A stretch of 35,015 bases of DNA from an uncultured Candidatus Nemicrothrix sp. (GTDB lineage Bacteria > Actinomycetota > Acidimicrobiia > Acidimicrobiales > Acidimicrobilacustridaceae), in contig CAIPQK010000158.1 of assembly GCA_903867185.1 (NCBI GenBank), positions 1 through 35,015 on the forward strand. The letters run 5' to 3'. Of this stretch, positions 23,861 to 27,703 are shown in pieces (position 1 is the first letter of the stretch; the number at the start of each line of letters is the position of its first letter). The notes under the pieces were generated by a model that did not search any database, was not told where the DNA came from, and saw only the letters and a list, made by a program, of their open reading frames with translations. Position numbers and translations under genes: made by a program.

Positions 23861-24391
23861 TCAGTCCTCGGCAGTCCAGCCCGCGCGTCGCGTCTCATAC
23901 ATTGCGATTGCCGCGGCGGTTCCGACGTTGAGCGAGCCGATCTTGCCCAACTGAGGGATGTAGGCCAGCACATCGGCGCCGGCGAGCAGATCTTTCGAAA
24001 GTCCGCGATCCTCGTGGCCCATCACAATGCAGATGTTTCCCGACAGGTCAGTCTCATGGAGCGGGACCGCACCTTCGGCAAGTTCGACGCCAACAACCCG
24101 ATAGCCAGCGGCATGGGCTGCAGCGAGTGCTTCGGTCGAGGTTTCGCAGGCTGTCGTGGTGACGAATTTCTGTGAACCAAGTGCGGTCTTCTGGACTTTG
24201 GCGTCGGTTGGCGAAGGTGAGCCAACGAGCCACAGATGATCGACGCTGTAAGCCGCTGCGGTTCTAAGGATGGAGCCGAGATTGAAGGGGTTCTGCACGC
24301 CGTCGAGCATCAACGCCATTTTGCGATCGTTCTTTCGTCGCCAGTCGCGATGCAAGCGTTTGAGTTCGGTACCACCAAGATTTCGAGTCAT
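23861..24391 (-). CDS. SpoU/TrmH-family RNA 2'-O-methyltransferase
   Basis: A 176-residue SPOUT enzyme that methylates ribose 2'-OH in tRNA or rRNA. The three SpoU motifs are visible: NPFNLGSILRTAAAYS (motif 1, catalytic Asn and Arg), VMGHEDRGLS (motif 2) and IPQLGKIGSLNVGTAAAIAMYE (motif 3, the trefoil knot that binds AdoMet). It lacks the N-terminal L30-like substrate domain of RlmB. The short N-terminal extension, with TELKRLHRDWRRKNDRK, is basic and could contact RNA. The RNA target cannot be told. The ATG overlaps the stop of the upstream methyltransferase gene (ATGA on the minus strand). Confidence 0.88.
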   Translation of the reverse strand: MTRNLGGTELKRLHRDWRRKNDRKMALMLDGVQNPFNLGSILRTAAAYSVDHLWLVGSPSPTDAKVQKTALGSQKFVTTTACETSTEALAAAHAAGYRVVGVELAEGAVPLHETDLSGNICIVMGHEDRGLSKDLLAGADVLAYIPQLGKIGSLNVGTAAAIAMYETRRAGWTAED

Positions 24392-25035
24392 CGGGCCTTC
24401 ACTTCAAGTAGTCGATATCCCGCGCGCGAACACACGCGAGTGGTGGCCCAACCTTGGGCCGTCATCCAATCAGCAAGAGAGTCGGCCCCGAGATGTCGTT
24501 GCACGACGAGCCATGCCATTCCCGACGGTGTAAGTCGATCGAGCCAAACCGTGAGCATGTGATGCATTGCCGGCTTACCGATTCGGATCGACGGGTTTGA
24601 CCACAGACCGTCGAACCGAGTGGCTGGCAAGGCGGCGAGGTCCTCGGGTGTGCCATCGATGGCAGATCCGTCGGAGTCAACAACGACTGCGTGGATGTCG
24701 GGACAGTCGTTGGCCACACCGTTTTTGGCGGTGAGTGCGACCGCACGTTCGTTTAGGTCAACAGCCCACACCGAACTCGCCGGCGACCGCCGAGCAAGGC
24801 TTACAGCAATCGGGCCGTAGCCGCAGCCAAGGTCGCACACGTTGGCCATCGAAGAAGTGGGGTGAGGCGCCTCTTGCAAGAGCAGTCGGGTTCCGGCATC
24901 GATACGACTCTGTGAAAAAACACCACGGTCGGTGGTGAACTGGAGTTCAAGGTCGGCGAGAGAGAGTTGGATCTCTTGCTCGGCAGAATCCACCGCTGGA
25001 GTCCGGGAGAAGTACTGAGACGATGGGCCGGACAT
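24388..25035 (-). CDS. RsmC/RlmG-like class I methyltransferase
   Basis: A 215-residue AdoMet-dependent methyltransferase of the MTS family. Motif I is DLGCGYGPIAVSLA, an acidic VDLNERAV follows, and motif IV reads WSNPSIRIGK, where RsmC and RlmG have NPPF. The N-terminal FTTDRGVFSQSRIDAGTRLLL matches the family's conserved lead-in. RsmC and RlmG methylate guanine N2 in rRNA, so a guanine in rRNA is a reasonable but unproved target; the single methyltransferase domain lacks the extra N-terminal copy of E. coli RsmC. It is co-transcribed with the SpoU gene and divergent from def. Confidence 0.85.
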   Translation of the reverse strand: MSGPSSQYFSRTPAVDSAEQEIQLSLADLELQFTTDRGVFSQSRIDAGTRLLLQEAPHPTSSMANVCDLGCGYGPIAVSLARRSPASSVWAVDLNERAVALTAKNGVANDCPDIHAVVVDSDGSAIDGTPEDLAALPATRFDGLWSNPSIRIGKPAMHHMLTVWLDRLTPSGMAWLVVQRHLGADSLADWMTAQGWATTRVCSRAGYRLLEVKAR

Positions 25036-25041
25036 GTCACG

Positions 25042-25047
25042 ACGCTA
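25042..25047 (-). promoter_or_regulatory. -10 element TAGCGT for the RsmC-like gene (leaderless)
   Basis: On the minus strand TAGCGT ends 6 nt before the ATG at 25035, predicting RNA that starts at the ATG. It shares the TA step at 25046-25047 with the opposing -10 of def. Confidence 0.6.
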
Positions 25048-25051
25048 CCCT
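25046..25051 (+). promoter_or_regulatory. -10 element TACCCT for def (leaderless)
   Basis: TACCCT ends 6 nt before the ATG of def at 25058, predicting RNA that starts at the ATG. It overlaps by two bases the opposite-strand -10 hexamer of the RsmC-like gene. A GAGG sits at 25053-25056 but would be too close to the ATG for a normal ribosome binding site. Confidence 0.6.
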
Positions 25052-25057
25052 TGAGGC

Positions 25058-25600
25058 ATGGCTCCGCACTTGATCCGCATCATCGGTGATCCCGTGCTTA
25101 CGCAACGCGCCACCGAGGTAACAAACGTCGATGGTGCTTTTGCAAAGCTCGTGCAGGACATGTTCGGCACGATGTACGAAGCACCTGGGGTCGGTCTTGC
25201 TGCTCCCCAGATTGGCGTGCAGAAACGATTCTTCGTCTTTGACTATGACGATGAGCCTGGCGTGATCATCAATCCGGTCATCGTCGAAACTCGTGGCGAA
25301 GCGGAATTCACCGAAGGTTGCCTTTCGATTCCGGGCTTACATTTCGACATCGTTCGCCCTGCCGAGATCCATGTGAAGGGCTACGACCTCGATGGCAACG
25401 AACTCGATCTTGAACTCGACGACTTCGCCTCTCGAGTCTTCCAACACGAGATCGACCATCTCGAGGGCATCCTGATGGAGAAGCACCTCACGGCCGAGCA
25501 ACTTGCCGAAGCCAGATCAACGCTGCGCGAGTTACGCGCTCTCGGGGTAGGGCAACTCCCAGAACCCGAGGTCGGCGCCGGCCGATTCAGGATTCTCTGA
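25058..25600 (+). CDS. def: Peptide deformylase
   Basis: A 180-residue metalloenzyme removing the formyl group from new proteins. The three family motifs are intact: GVGLAAPQIG (44-53, Gln51), EGCLS (86-90, metal ligand Cys88) and QHEIDHLEG (His130 and His134 ligands, catalytic Glu131). Length is typical, with a C-terminal extension of about 40 residues after the last motif. It is followed after 7 nt by fmt, which encodes the enzyme adding the formyl group to initiator tRNA. Confidence 0.96.
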   Translation: MAPHLIRIIGDPVLTQRATEVTNVDGAFAKLVQDMFGTMYEAPGVGLAAPQIGVQKRFFVFDYDDEPGVIINPVIVETRGEAEFTEGCLSIPGLHFDIVRPAEIHVKGYDLDGNELDLELDDFASRVFQHEIDHLEGILMEKHLTAEQLAEARSTLRELRALGVGQLPEPEVGAGRFRIL

Positions 25601-25607
25601 GCACCAC

Positions 25608-26504
25608 ATGACCGAACCGATACTGGCGCGTCCGCCGGCCCGTAGTCAACGCATCGCGTATCTCGGAACCCCTGATGTCGCCGTCGAGCCGCTTCGGGCT
25701 CTTGTGTCTGCAGGCTTCGACGTTGTCATCGTTGTGTCCGGCGCCGATAAACGACGGGGACGGGGGAGCGAGAGTTCACCTTCACCGGTGAAAGCGGCTG
25801 CCCTCGAAATGGGGCTGCCCGTTTCCGATCAACTCGATGATGTCCTCAAATCTTCTATCGATCTCGCCGTCGTGGTCGCTTACGGCCGAATTATCCCGGT
25901 AACGATTCTCGAACGCGTGCCGATGATCAATATTCATTTCTCATTGCTCCCGCGTTGGCGCGGCGCTGCTCCAGTCGAACGGGCCCTACTTGCCGGAGAC
26001 ACAGAGACCGGCGTTTCACTGATGGACATTGGGGTGGAACTCGATATCGGCGATGTTTATGCGGAATCGAGAACGGAGATCGCCGACAACGACACGTTGA
26101 TCACACTTCGTGAGCGCCTCGTGCAGATGGGCGCAACGCTGTTGGTCGATTCGCTGAAGCAAGGGCTTCCTGCACCGCGACCACAAACGGGCGATGTCAC
26201 CTATGCGAAGAAGATTTCCTCTGAGGACCTGCATGTCGACTGGACTCGTGCTGCGAGCGACGTGGACCGTCTCGTGCGGCTTGGCGGTGCATGGACAACG
26301 TTTCGTGGGACACGTTTGAAAATCCACGAAGTGTCGGTTGTTTCGGGTCAGGGGATACCCGGATCAGTCGACGGACTCGTGGTGGCGTGCGGCGAAGGTG
26401 CGGTCGAACTTCTAGTGGTACAGCCAGAAGGCAAAGCGAAACAAGACGCGAGCTCTTGGAAGAACGGCGCTCGCGTAACTTCTACCGATCGATTGGGTCA
26501 ATGA
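25608..26504 (+). CDS. fmt: Methionyl-tRNA formyltransferase
   Basis: A 298-residue enzyme, close to the usual 310, that formylates Met-tRNA(fMet) with 10-formyl-THF. The N-terminal domain starts RIAYLGTPDVAVEPL; the catalytic Asn and His are in MINIHFSLLPRWRGAAP, and TGVSLMDIGVELDIGDV holds the third catalytic residue. The smaller C-terminal OB-like domain (from about residue 205) begins KKISSEDLHVDW. No clear Shine-Dalgarno precedes the ATG, so re-initiation after def is likely. The end overlaps rsmB (ATGA). Confidence 0.95.
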   Translation: MTEPILARPPARSQRIAYLGTPDVAVEPLRALVSAGFDVVIVVSGADKRRGRGSESSPSPVKAAALEMGLPVSDQLDDVLKSSIDLAVVVAYGRIIPVTILERVPMINIHFSLLPRWRGAAPVERALLAGDTETGVSLMDIGVELDIGDVYAESRTEIADNDTLITLRERLVQMGATLLVDSLKQGLPAPRPQTGDVTYAKKISSEDLHVDWTRAASDVDRLVRLGGAWTTFRGTRLKIHEVSVVSGQGIPGSVDGLVVACGEGAVELLVVQPEGKAKQDASSWKNGARVTSTDRLGQ

Positions 26505-27703
26505 CCGAGCCAGCAAAAAAGAAACCTGTTCGCAAGCCCTCAGATGTCGCAGGTGTTGCCGCTCGCCAACTTGCCGCCGAAGCGCTTCTGCGGATTGAGC
26601 GCGATGGTGCCTATGCCAACATCGTCCTTTCGCCACTTCTCGATTCGAGTGGACTCGAACAACGAGACAAGGGGTTCGTCACTGAACTGGTTTACGGAAC
26701 GACGCGTATGCGCCGGTCGTGTGATTGGTTGGTCGACCGGTTTCTTCCCGATCCTGAACGGGTCGACCTCGTCGCTCGCACGTGGCTGCGGCTCGGGGCA
26801 TTTCAACTGGCCTTTTTGGGCACGCCGCCGCATGCAGCGGTGAGCGCCACGGTGGAGGCCGCTCCCAAGAAGATTAGTGGTCTCTGTAATGCGGTCTTGC
26901 GCAAGGTGGCGACATCGTTGCCGGTGGTTTGGCCCTCTGACGAGGTTCGGCTGTCCCAGCCCGATTGGTTGGTCGCTCGGCTTTCCGAGGACCTCGGTCG
27001 CGAACGAGCACTAGCCGCGCTCGAAGCGATGAACGAAGCAGCATCGGTTACGACCCGAGACGATGGCTACATCCAAGACGAAGGGTCACAACTCGTGGCC
27101 GCAGCCGTCGACGCGGAACCCGGCGACTTGATTCTCGATATGTGTGCAGCACCCGGCGGTAAAGCGACGGCACTCGTGAGCGATGGGGCAATCGTGATTG
27201 CCGCGGACATGCGGCCGTCGAGGTTGACGCTGTTGTCGAGCAATCGCGATCGACTCGATATCAGTAGTAACGATATGCACATCGTGGGTGCCGATGGAAC
27301 ATCGCCTCCATTCCGAAGCAACAGTTTTGATCGAGTGCTTCTCGATTCACCCTGCTCGGGTCTCGGAGCGCTTCGTCGTCGTCCCGACGCGCGCTGGCGC
27401 ATCACGCAAAACGACATCGACACGCTTGTTGAAATCCAACGCCGGCTTTTTGCTCAAGCAGTTGATTTGGTTCGACCGGGCGGTGAGGTTGTGTACAGCG
27501 TGTGCACAATTACCTCTGCAGAGACGCTCGGGCTCGATGAATGGGCCGCGAAGAACTATCCGCACCTCGTCGCTCGACCACTTGAGATCGATCCATGGAT
27601 GGCATTGGGTCGAGGTGCAATTCTGCTTCCGCAGGATGAGGGAACTGATGGCATGTATATCCTTCGCCTTCAGGTGCCTGGCGATGAGGAAGTAGCGAAC
27701 TAA
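26501..27703 (+). CDS. rsmB: 16S rRNA m5C967 methyltransferase RsmB (Sun/Fmu)
   Basis: A 400-residue AdoMet-dependent enzyme that methylates cytosine 967 of 16S rRNA in E. coli. The N-terminal NusB-like RNA-binding domain contains AAEALLRIERDGAYANIVL and RDKGFVTELVYGTTR. The catalytic domain has CAAPGGKATALV, LLDSPCSGLGALRRRPDARW with the cysteine of motif IV, and YSVCTITSAE with the nucleophilic cysteine of motif VI. The open frame extends upstream, but ATG 26501 overlaps the fmt stop and precedes the conserved domain. It ends in a TAATG overlap with the next gene. Confidence 0.93.
   Translation: MTEPAKKKPVRKPSDVAGVAARQLAAEALLRIERDGAYANIVLSPLLDSSGLEQRDKGFVTELVYGTTRMRRSCDWLVDRFLPDPERVDLVARTWLRLGAFQLAFLGTPPHAAVSATVEAAPKKISGLCNAVLRKVATSLPVVWPSDEVRLSQPDWLVARLSEDLGRERALAALEAMNEAASVTTRDDGYIQDEGSQLVAAAVDAEPGDLILDMCAAPGGKATALVSDGAIVIAADMRPSRLTLLSSNRDRLDISSNDMHIVGADGTSPPFRSNSFDRVLLDSPCSGLGALRRRPDARWRITQNDIDTLVEIQRRLFAQAVDLVRPGGEVVYSVCTITSAETLGLDEWAAKNYPHLVARPLEIDPWMALGRGAILLPQDEGTDGMYILRLQVPGDEEVAN

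Follow-up and report, generated by a model that had tools for sequence, protein, structure and literature searches.

Can the 22 bp between two divergent start codons hold a promoter for each gene, and has selection kept such an arrangement? This question is raised by a peptide deformylase gene (def) and a methyltransferase gene that read away from each other in an uncultured Candidatus Nemicrothrix sp. (GCA_903867185.1). The window, by which we mean the whole stretch of DNA that was analyzed, is 35,015 nucleotides long and makes up the entire contig CAIPQK010000158.1 (C158) of a 2.57-Mb assembly in 232 contigs; by def, the nearest named relatives include assemblies from metagenomes that carry the labels Acidimicrobiia, Candidatus Microthrix, and Microthrixaceae. 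What is known of bidirectional promoters comes mainly from transcription-start maps of model species.

The gap and its two predicted −10 elements

The gap is, to the base, the one that an earlier note made from the letters of this sequence alone had reported between the def and RsmC-like starts, and the positions of TACCCT and TAGCGT, their 6-nt spacings, and their overlap on one TA step are likewise exactly as given there (Table 1). Opposing −10 elements that reciprocally overlap are the mark of a shared −10 bidirectional promoter, and the two elements here do overlap in this way, an overlap that is conserved. Leaderless genes are recognized by a TANNNT about 12 bp before the start together with the lack of a usable Shine–Dalgarno sequence; the first T of each hexamer lies 12 nt from its ATG, and neither start has a usable Shine–Dalgarno sequence as judged from the sequence. 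On the methyltransferase side, none was seen at the usual spacing before the ATG when the gap sequence was read. Both sites are of the −10-only TANNNT type, and a generic sigma-70 scan for −35/−10 promoters over 24800–25300 returned no promoter. On the two strands, the predicted transcription starts are 23 bp apart, each being the A of an ATG (plus-strand 25058, minus-strand 25035).

Each of the two genes stands at the head of an operon. In the forward direction, def is separated from fmt by 7 bp, and the third gene is an RsmB-like open reading frame, taken from a mechanical listing, whose true start is probably near 26500. In the reverse direction, the start of the SpoU-family gene shares 4 bp with the end of the MTS methyltransferase gene, for which no NCBIfam model scored above its cut-off.

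Table 1. Features of the def/methyltransferase locus and of Pfam-supported divergent gene pairs at other loci
Feature	Position	Strand	Basis or remark
Intergenic gap, the entire predicted bidirectional promoter (22 bp)	25036..25057		between minus-strand ATG 25035 and plus-strand ATG 25058
Predicted −10 TACCCT for def	25046..25051	+	6 nt to ATG
Predicted −10 TAGCGT for methyltransferase gene	25042..25047	−	6 nt to ATG
TA step common to both −10 elements	25046..25047	both	sequence
A at −16 of def, the last T of the reverse −10	25042	+	sequence, comparative counts
CGC directly 5′ of the plus-strand −10	25043..25045	+	CG mostly kept where reverse −10 lost
def, peptide deformylase	25058..25600	+	Pfam PF01327 6e-48; NCBIfam NF001159, TIGR00079 over cut-off
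MTS-domain (RsmC-like) methyltransferase	24388..25035	−	Pfam PF05175 2e-27
SpoU-family RNA methyltransferase	23861..24391	−	second gene of reverse operon
fmt, methionyl-tRNA formyltransferase	25608..26504	+	TIGR00460 just over cut-off
RsmB-like open reading frame	26291..27703	+	third gene of forward operon; RsmB models below cut-offs
Zinc-binding dehydrogenase / molybdopterin oxidoreductase	L283:1200-1227		identical 22-bp layout, Pfam both sides
HIT / CDP-alcohol phosphatidyltransferase			Pfam both sides
Histidine phosphatase / uracil-DNA glycosylase			Pfam both sides
SDR / amidohydrolase			Pfam both sides
Epoxide hydrolase / amidohydrolase			Pfam both sides
SDR / SDR			Pfam both sides
DUF6457 / RF-1 domain			Pfam both sides

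The class to which this gap would belong has been defined by divergent transcription starts 7–25 bp apart on opposite strands (PMC10268837), and among E. coli bidirectional promoters a start spacing of 18 bp is reported as the commonest, with 10 and 23 bp also common (PMC12825309). As in the shared −10 class of these two papers, the opposing −10 elements share bases and the predicted starts are 23 bp apart, but unlike the class as described there, the prediction here is of two leaderless RNAs, with the gap itself as the promoter. In Actinobacteria, leaderless genes are described with TANNNT about 12 bp before the start (PMC3160421, PMC3898074), and in M. tuberculosis CGN precedes TANNNT (PMC3898074). 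Each half of the gap is like these genes in its spacing and consensus, as is the CGN extension, whereas in those accounts a −10 usually serves one gene and here one TA step would serve two. According to PMC3898074, divergent promoters that are closely juxtaposed are common in the M. tuberculosis transcriptome, and both mRNAs of the divergent pair PrpD / Rv1129c are leaderless; that pair resembles the def pair in being divergent and, as is predicted for def, doubly leaderless, and the legend that presents it gives no shared −10. Of the titles and abstract openings listed in a literature search, none describes a −10 shared between a pair of leaderless genes.

Leaderless-type promoters in this genome

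We sampled 41 stretches of this genome including the window (354 kb), in which genes and their starts were called with a simple codon score of our own; 292 of the 301 called genes had sufficient upstream sequence. TANNNT ends 6 nt before the start in 27 of the 292 and 7 nt before it in 12, and falls to 4 genes each at 8 and 9 nt, with 0 or 1 gene at each remaining spacing in the 0–15 nt range. From this peak at 6–7 nt, we conclude that leaderless-type promoters are a normal class in this genome, in agreement with what is described for Actinobacteria (PMC3160421).

When alternative starts are allowed, the sample holds 55 leaderless-type genes. An A at −16 completes a second TANNNT that faces the other way across the same TA. 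It is present in 1 of the 32 that lie behind a same-strand gene, in 1 of the 9 without a called neighbor, and in 3 of the 14 that are divergent, two of these three being the def/methyltransferase pair itself. Of the 27 divergent neighbor pairs sampled, four show a leaderless-type −10 before each gene, and the def pair is the only one in which the TA is common to the two; the other three have two separate −10 elements and gaps of 33, 38, and 82 bp. The pair with the 82-bp gap is also in the window (32322 on the minus strand and 32404 on the plus strand), with TANNNT 6 nt before both starts. Its 32404 promoter also has an A at −16, and thus an opposing TANNNT on its TA, with no called gene start adjoining.

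Conservation of the gap and the base at −16

A lack of conservation of the hexamers in close relatives would have refuted the earlier reading; they are conserved. Among 21 members of the genus searched, including the window, def was found in 20 (G014 had no def match), and every one of these 20 has a 22-bp gap and a spacing of 6 on each side. Positions 25040–25053 (CGACGCTACCCTTG) and 25055 are invariant in these 20 genomes, which is 15 of the 22 gap positions; the other 7 vary, and the start codons on either side swap between ATG and GTG.

For the order, we collected the upstream regions of def from 130 genomes, mostly multi-contig assemblies. The def N-terminus was found in 127 of them (the motif was not found in G237, G067, and G112), and 125 had a TANNNT 5–9 nt before the start (G267 and G284 did not). 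A script sorted these loci by geometry alone, without using base −16. A locus is called mirror if a divergent methyltransferase has an in-frame start 5–9 nt from the end of the mirror hexamer, absent if there is no methyltransferase match within 620 bp, and elsewhere if a divergent methyltransferase starts at another place. The methyltransferase start is a predicted one, picked by frame and spacing, and where several −10 candidates were present, the script favored hexamers ending in CCT and spacings near 6.

Base −16 is A in 66/66 mirror genomes, which come from 31 genera and 15 families, in 13/31 elsewhere genomes, and in 1/28 absent genomes, where the forward −10 is present, a class that includes G135, whose contig ends just upstream of def and whose methyltransferase is on another contig. 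This pattern was first spotted by eye in the loci of the first 50 genomes. The 80 later ones, which are counted apart, are a non-exhaustive selection made by hand down a score list while their sequences were still unseen: 77 were usable by the def motif and 75 had a −10, and among these A is present in 35/35 mirror, 1/18 absent, and 12/22 elsewhere genomes.

The elsewhere class divides according to the same base. Where the A is present, a separate TANNNT 5–9 nt before the methyltransferase start is found in 0/13, and where it is not, the methyltransferase has its own TANNNT 6–8 nt before its start in 16/18. The two exceptions, G100 and G312, have neither the A nor a TANNNT 5–9 nt before the methyltransferase, and each has one at 10 nt. 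In the 13 elsewhere genomes with the A, the methyltransferase appears to be a leadered gene served by the shared promoter; G203 has AGAGGAG shortly 5′ of its methyltransferase start, and the start in G265 is 10 nt from the shared hexamer. When the genomes are grouped by whether the methyltransferase is predicted to need the shared element, a grouping that we devised after seeing the class counts, A is present in 79/81 that would need it versus 1/44 that would not. The exception in the latter group is G145, which has the A with the methyltransferase gene not there. At one locus outside the counted set, L013, the alignment puts the two divergent genes 17 bp from each other, and the A is missing.

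In the 66 mirror genomes, the reverse hexamer is TACCGT in 38 and TAGCGT in 28. The spacing stays at 6–8 nt on both sides despite swaps between ATG and GTG, with one plus-strand case at 5 in a searched range of 5–9. The def −10 is TANCCT, a narrower motif than TANNNT, in 106/125 order genomes, with the choice of hexamer having favored CCT where several were possible.

Neighboring columns and kinship

We compared the columns upstream of the forward −10 using one genome per genus, with 31 mirror genera and 36 control genera; the TA and the final T are constant by construction of the search. In the mirror genera, −16 A, −15 C, and −14 G are constant while columns −17 to −20 vary. Among the control genera, 27/36 have C at −15 and 28/36 have G at −14, versus 1/36 with A at −16. 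Since CG at −15/−14 is mostly kept in both groups, it belongs to the forward promoter (CGN-TANNNT), and since columns −17 to −20 vary and CG is kept regardless, the base whose presence follows the reverse gene is exactly that required for the reverse promoter.

Fisher p values for the class counts disregard kinship and are not quotable as they stand. Within families, a comparison of mirror with the rest by geometry alone gives 6 families for, 0 against, and 3 ties (sign test p 0.03), and when only mirror and absent loci are compared, 3 families are informative, all in favor (p 0.25). The post hoc grouping by need gives 7/7 in favor, with one exception inside family f14 (p 0.016). Mapped on a tree of 97 methyltransferase rows, the A state must have changed at least 14 times. 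Counting only supported branches leaves 4 and 2 independent pairs in the two paired tests because the proteins are short, and neither test is able to reach significance; no pair is contrary, and about 2 of the 4 show no difference.

Proposed mechanism and alternatives

We propose that the gap is very probably a minimal bidirectional promoter, in which two −10 elements on one TA give rise to two predicted leaderless mRNAs. RNA polymerase with what would be the housekeeping sigma factor would bind the gap in either of two orientations, and as the plus-strand and minus-strand hexamers share the TA at −12/−11, one melted region would serve both. Transcription beginning at the A of each ATG would yield a leaderless def-fmt-rsmB mRNA forward and an mRNA of the MTS methyltransferase and the SpoU methyltransferase in reverse, and with both starts leaderless, the intergenic region would be nothing but promoter. 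The base pair at 25042 (A on the plus strand, T on the minus strand) would confer bidirectionality, and another base there would leave the promoter firing only toward def. The core of this model, already put forward in the earlier note, is that a compact bidirectional promoter serves two leaderless genes from one TA. Conservation and the single-base contrast support it strongly at the level of sequence; the 5′ ends, the sigma factor, the two polymerases not binding at once, and a regulatory benefit are the parts that we infer. Opposing polymerases are reported as unable to bind together at bidirectional promoters, and the basal activity of five tested E. coli promoters is reported as too low for competition (PMC12825309). 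At the def gap, such exclusion, which the earlier note had proposed, is physically likely on steric grounds, and it need not regulate anything.

What makes the gap notable is a predicted doubly leaderless form of a known bidirectional class that is retained across the order, with one base that tracks the need of the reverse gene. Comparative genomics alone thus yields strong evidence, from 125 genomes, of selection on the reverse half of a bidirectional promoter, and offers a route to finding functional bidirectional promoters without RNA data. With 22 bp, two leaderless genes, and one switch base, the gap is also a minimal system for symmetry, polymerase orientation, and the coupling of expression.

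Two accounts of why the layout persists are compatible with this mechanism. The first, to which we give slightly less than an even chance, is that the shared promoter is real but reflects mere genome compaction, two overlapped promoters whose genes are functionally unlinked. It fits with the many genera where the methyltransferase was not detected at this place or is served by a promoter of its own, and with the report that there is no competition at basal activity (PMC12825309). It contradicts only a benefit of coupling and leaves the mechanism intact; that the layout persists in 15 families is a hint of such a benefit, though compactness alone could explain it. The second account, which we offer tentatively and hold to be somewhat the less probable, is that selection keeps a promoter coupling the processing of initiator methionine (def-fmt-rsmB) to the RNA-methyltransferase operon, with −16 as an on/off switch of reverse transcription that has been flipped repeatedly with the neighboring gene.

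It is quite unlikely that the promoters instead lie inside each other's coding regions, with both mRNAs carrying 5′ leaders and the gap holding translation signals or a regulator site. The sequence GAGG at 25053–25056 does resemble a Shine–Dalgarno core, but it ends 1 nt short of the def ATG and is intact in only 8/20 genus genomes, and because of this spacing and poor conservation we rejected it as a Shine–Dalgarno sequence. The conserved block is, moreover, two TANNNT hexamers at leaderless spacing, and where the methyltransferase starts elsewhere and the A is lost, the TANNNT before that start in those 16 of 18 genomes is again 6–8 nt away. Least credible of all is that only the def promoter is real, with a forward promoter that extends to include the A at −16 and makes the reverse TANNNT a by-product: CG at −15/−14, mostly conserved with or without the methyltransferase, does indicate a forward promoter that extends 5′ of TANNNT, but the A is missing in 27/28 genomes without a detected methyltransferase despite their forward −10, and it is similarly rare (the 1/32 above) where leaderless-type promoters of this genome follow a same-strand gene.

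The layout at other loci

The bidirectional layout is not confined to def. The pattern CAT-N6-ANNNTANNNT-N6-ATG has 55 matches in 61 genomes versus 6 for a reversed-pattern control (summed by hand). Within the genus, this 23-bp layout accounts for 39 matches versus 4 for the control, of which 14 are the def locus and many others repeated orthologues, and outside the genus there are 16 versus 2. A doubly leaderless 18-bp geometry in the same 61 genomes gives 9 versus 5, near background (also a hand sum). At the scale of the phylum, in 149 genomes, the 23-bp layout has 100 matches versus 62 for the control (summed by hand and re-added); many of the listed matches look AT-rich by eye, and the strong excess seems to be a trait of nearer relatives. 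The earlier note had called the arrangement unusual, a description that calls for some qualification: start sites 23 bp apart are described as common in E. coli (PMC12825309), other gene pairs have the layout, and its strict form is found at the def locus in 66/97 sampled order genomes having a divergent methyltransferase.

We examined 21 loci in detail, namely 20 hand-picked pattern matches and one site of this genome. Eight of them have two open reading frames of at least 100 aa, and a Pfam scan of the 20 proteins of 10 pairs gave seven pairs with a domain over cut-off on both sides (L283, L288, L289, L293, L294, L295, and L296; Table 1), whose predicted start codons are those of the pattern. 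In most other loci, one side is merely a short open reading frame, so pattern matches alone overcount. The site string of L283 recurs in many genus members as pattern matches, with the gene pair examined at L283.

Several loci have the layout beside a single long gene. The same 22-bp shared-TA layout is found at L124:7701-7728 (contig C108) and L282:1234-1261 beside a 391-aa gene that is acyl-CoA dehydrogenase-like by eye, and opposite it is a 15-codon open reading frame, similar in the two genomes (MGVTQAERMIHLCHT in G000 and MGVTQAKRMIHLCHT in G002), that could possibly encode a leaderless small peptide. In three genomes of two genera (L285:1236, L298:1141, and L297:1139), regulators that are IclR-like by eye have the shared-TA layout, and opposite them an ATG is followed immediately by a stop, which would place a start-stop element at the predicted 5′ end of the RNA. 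LysR-like regulators, again by eye, have the same layout at L284:1199 and L301:1166, where the opposing open reading frame is 2–3 codons long (ML and MLQ) and likewise sits at the predicted RNA 5′ end.
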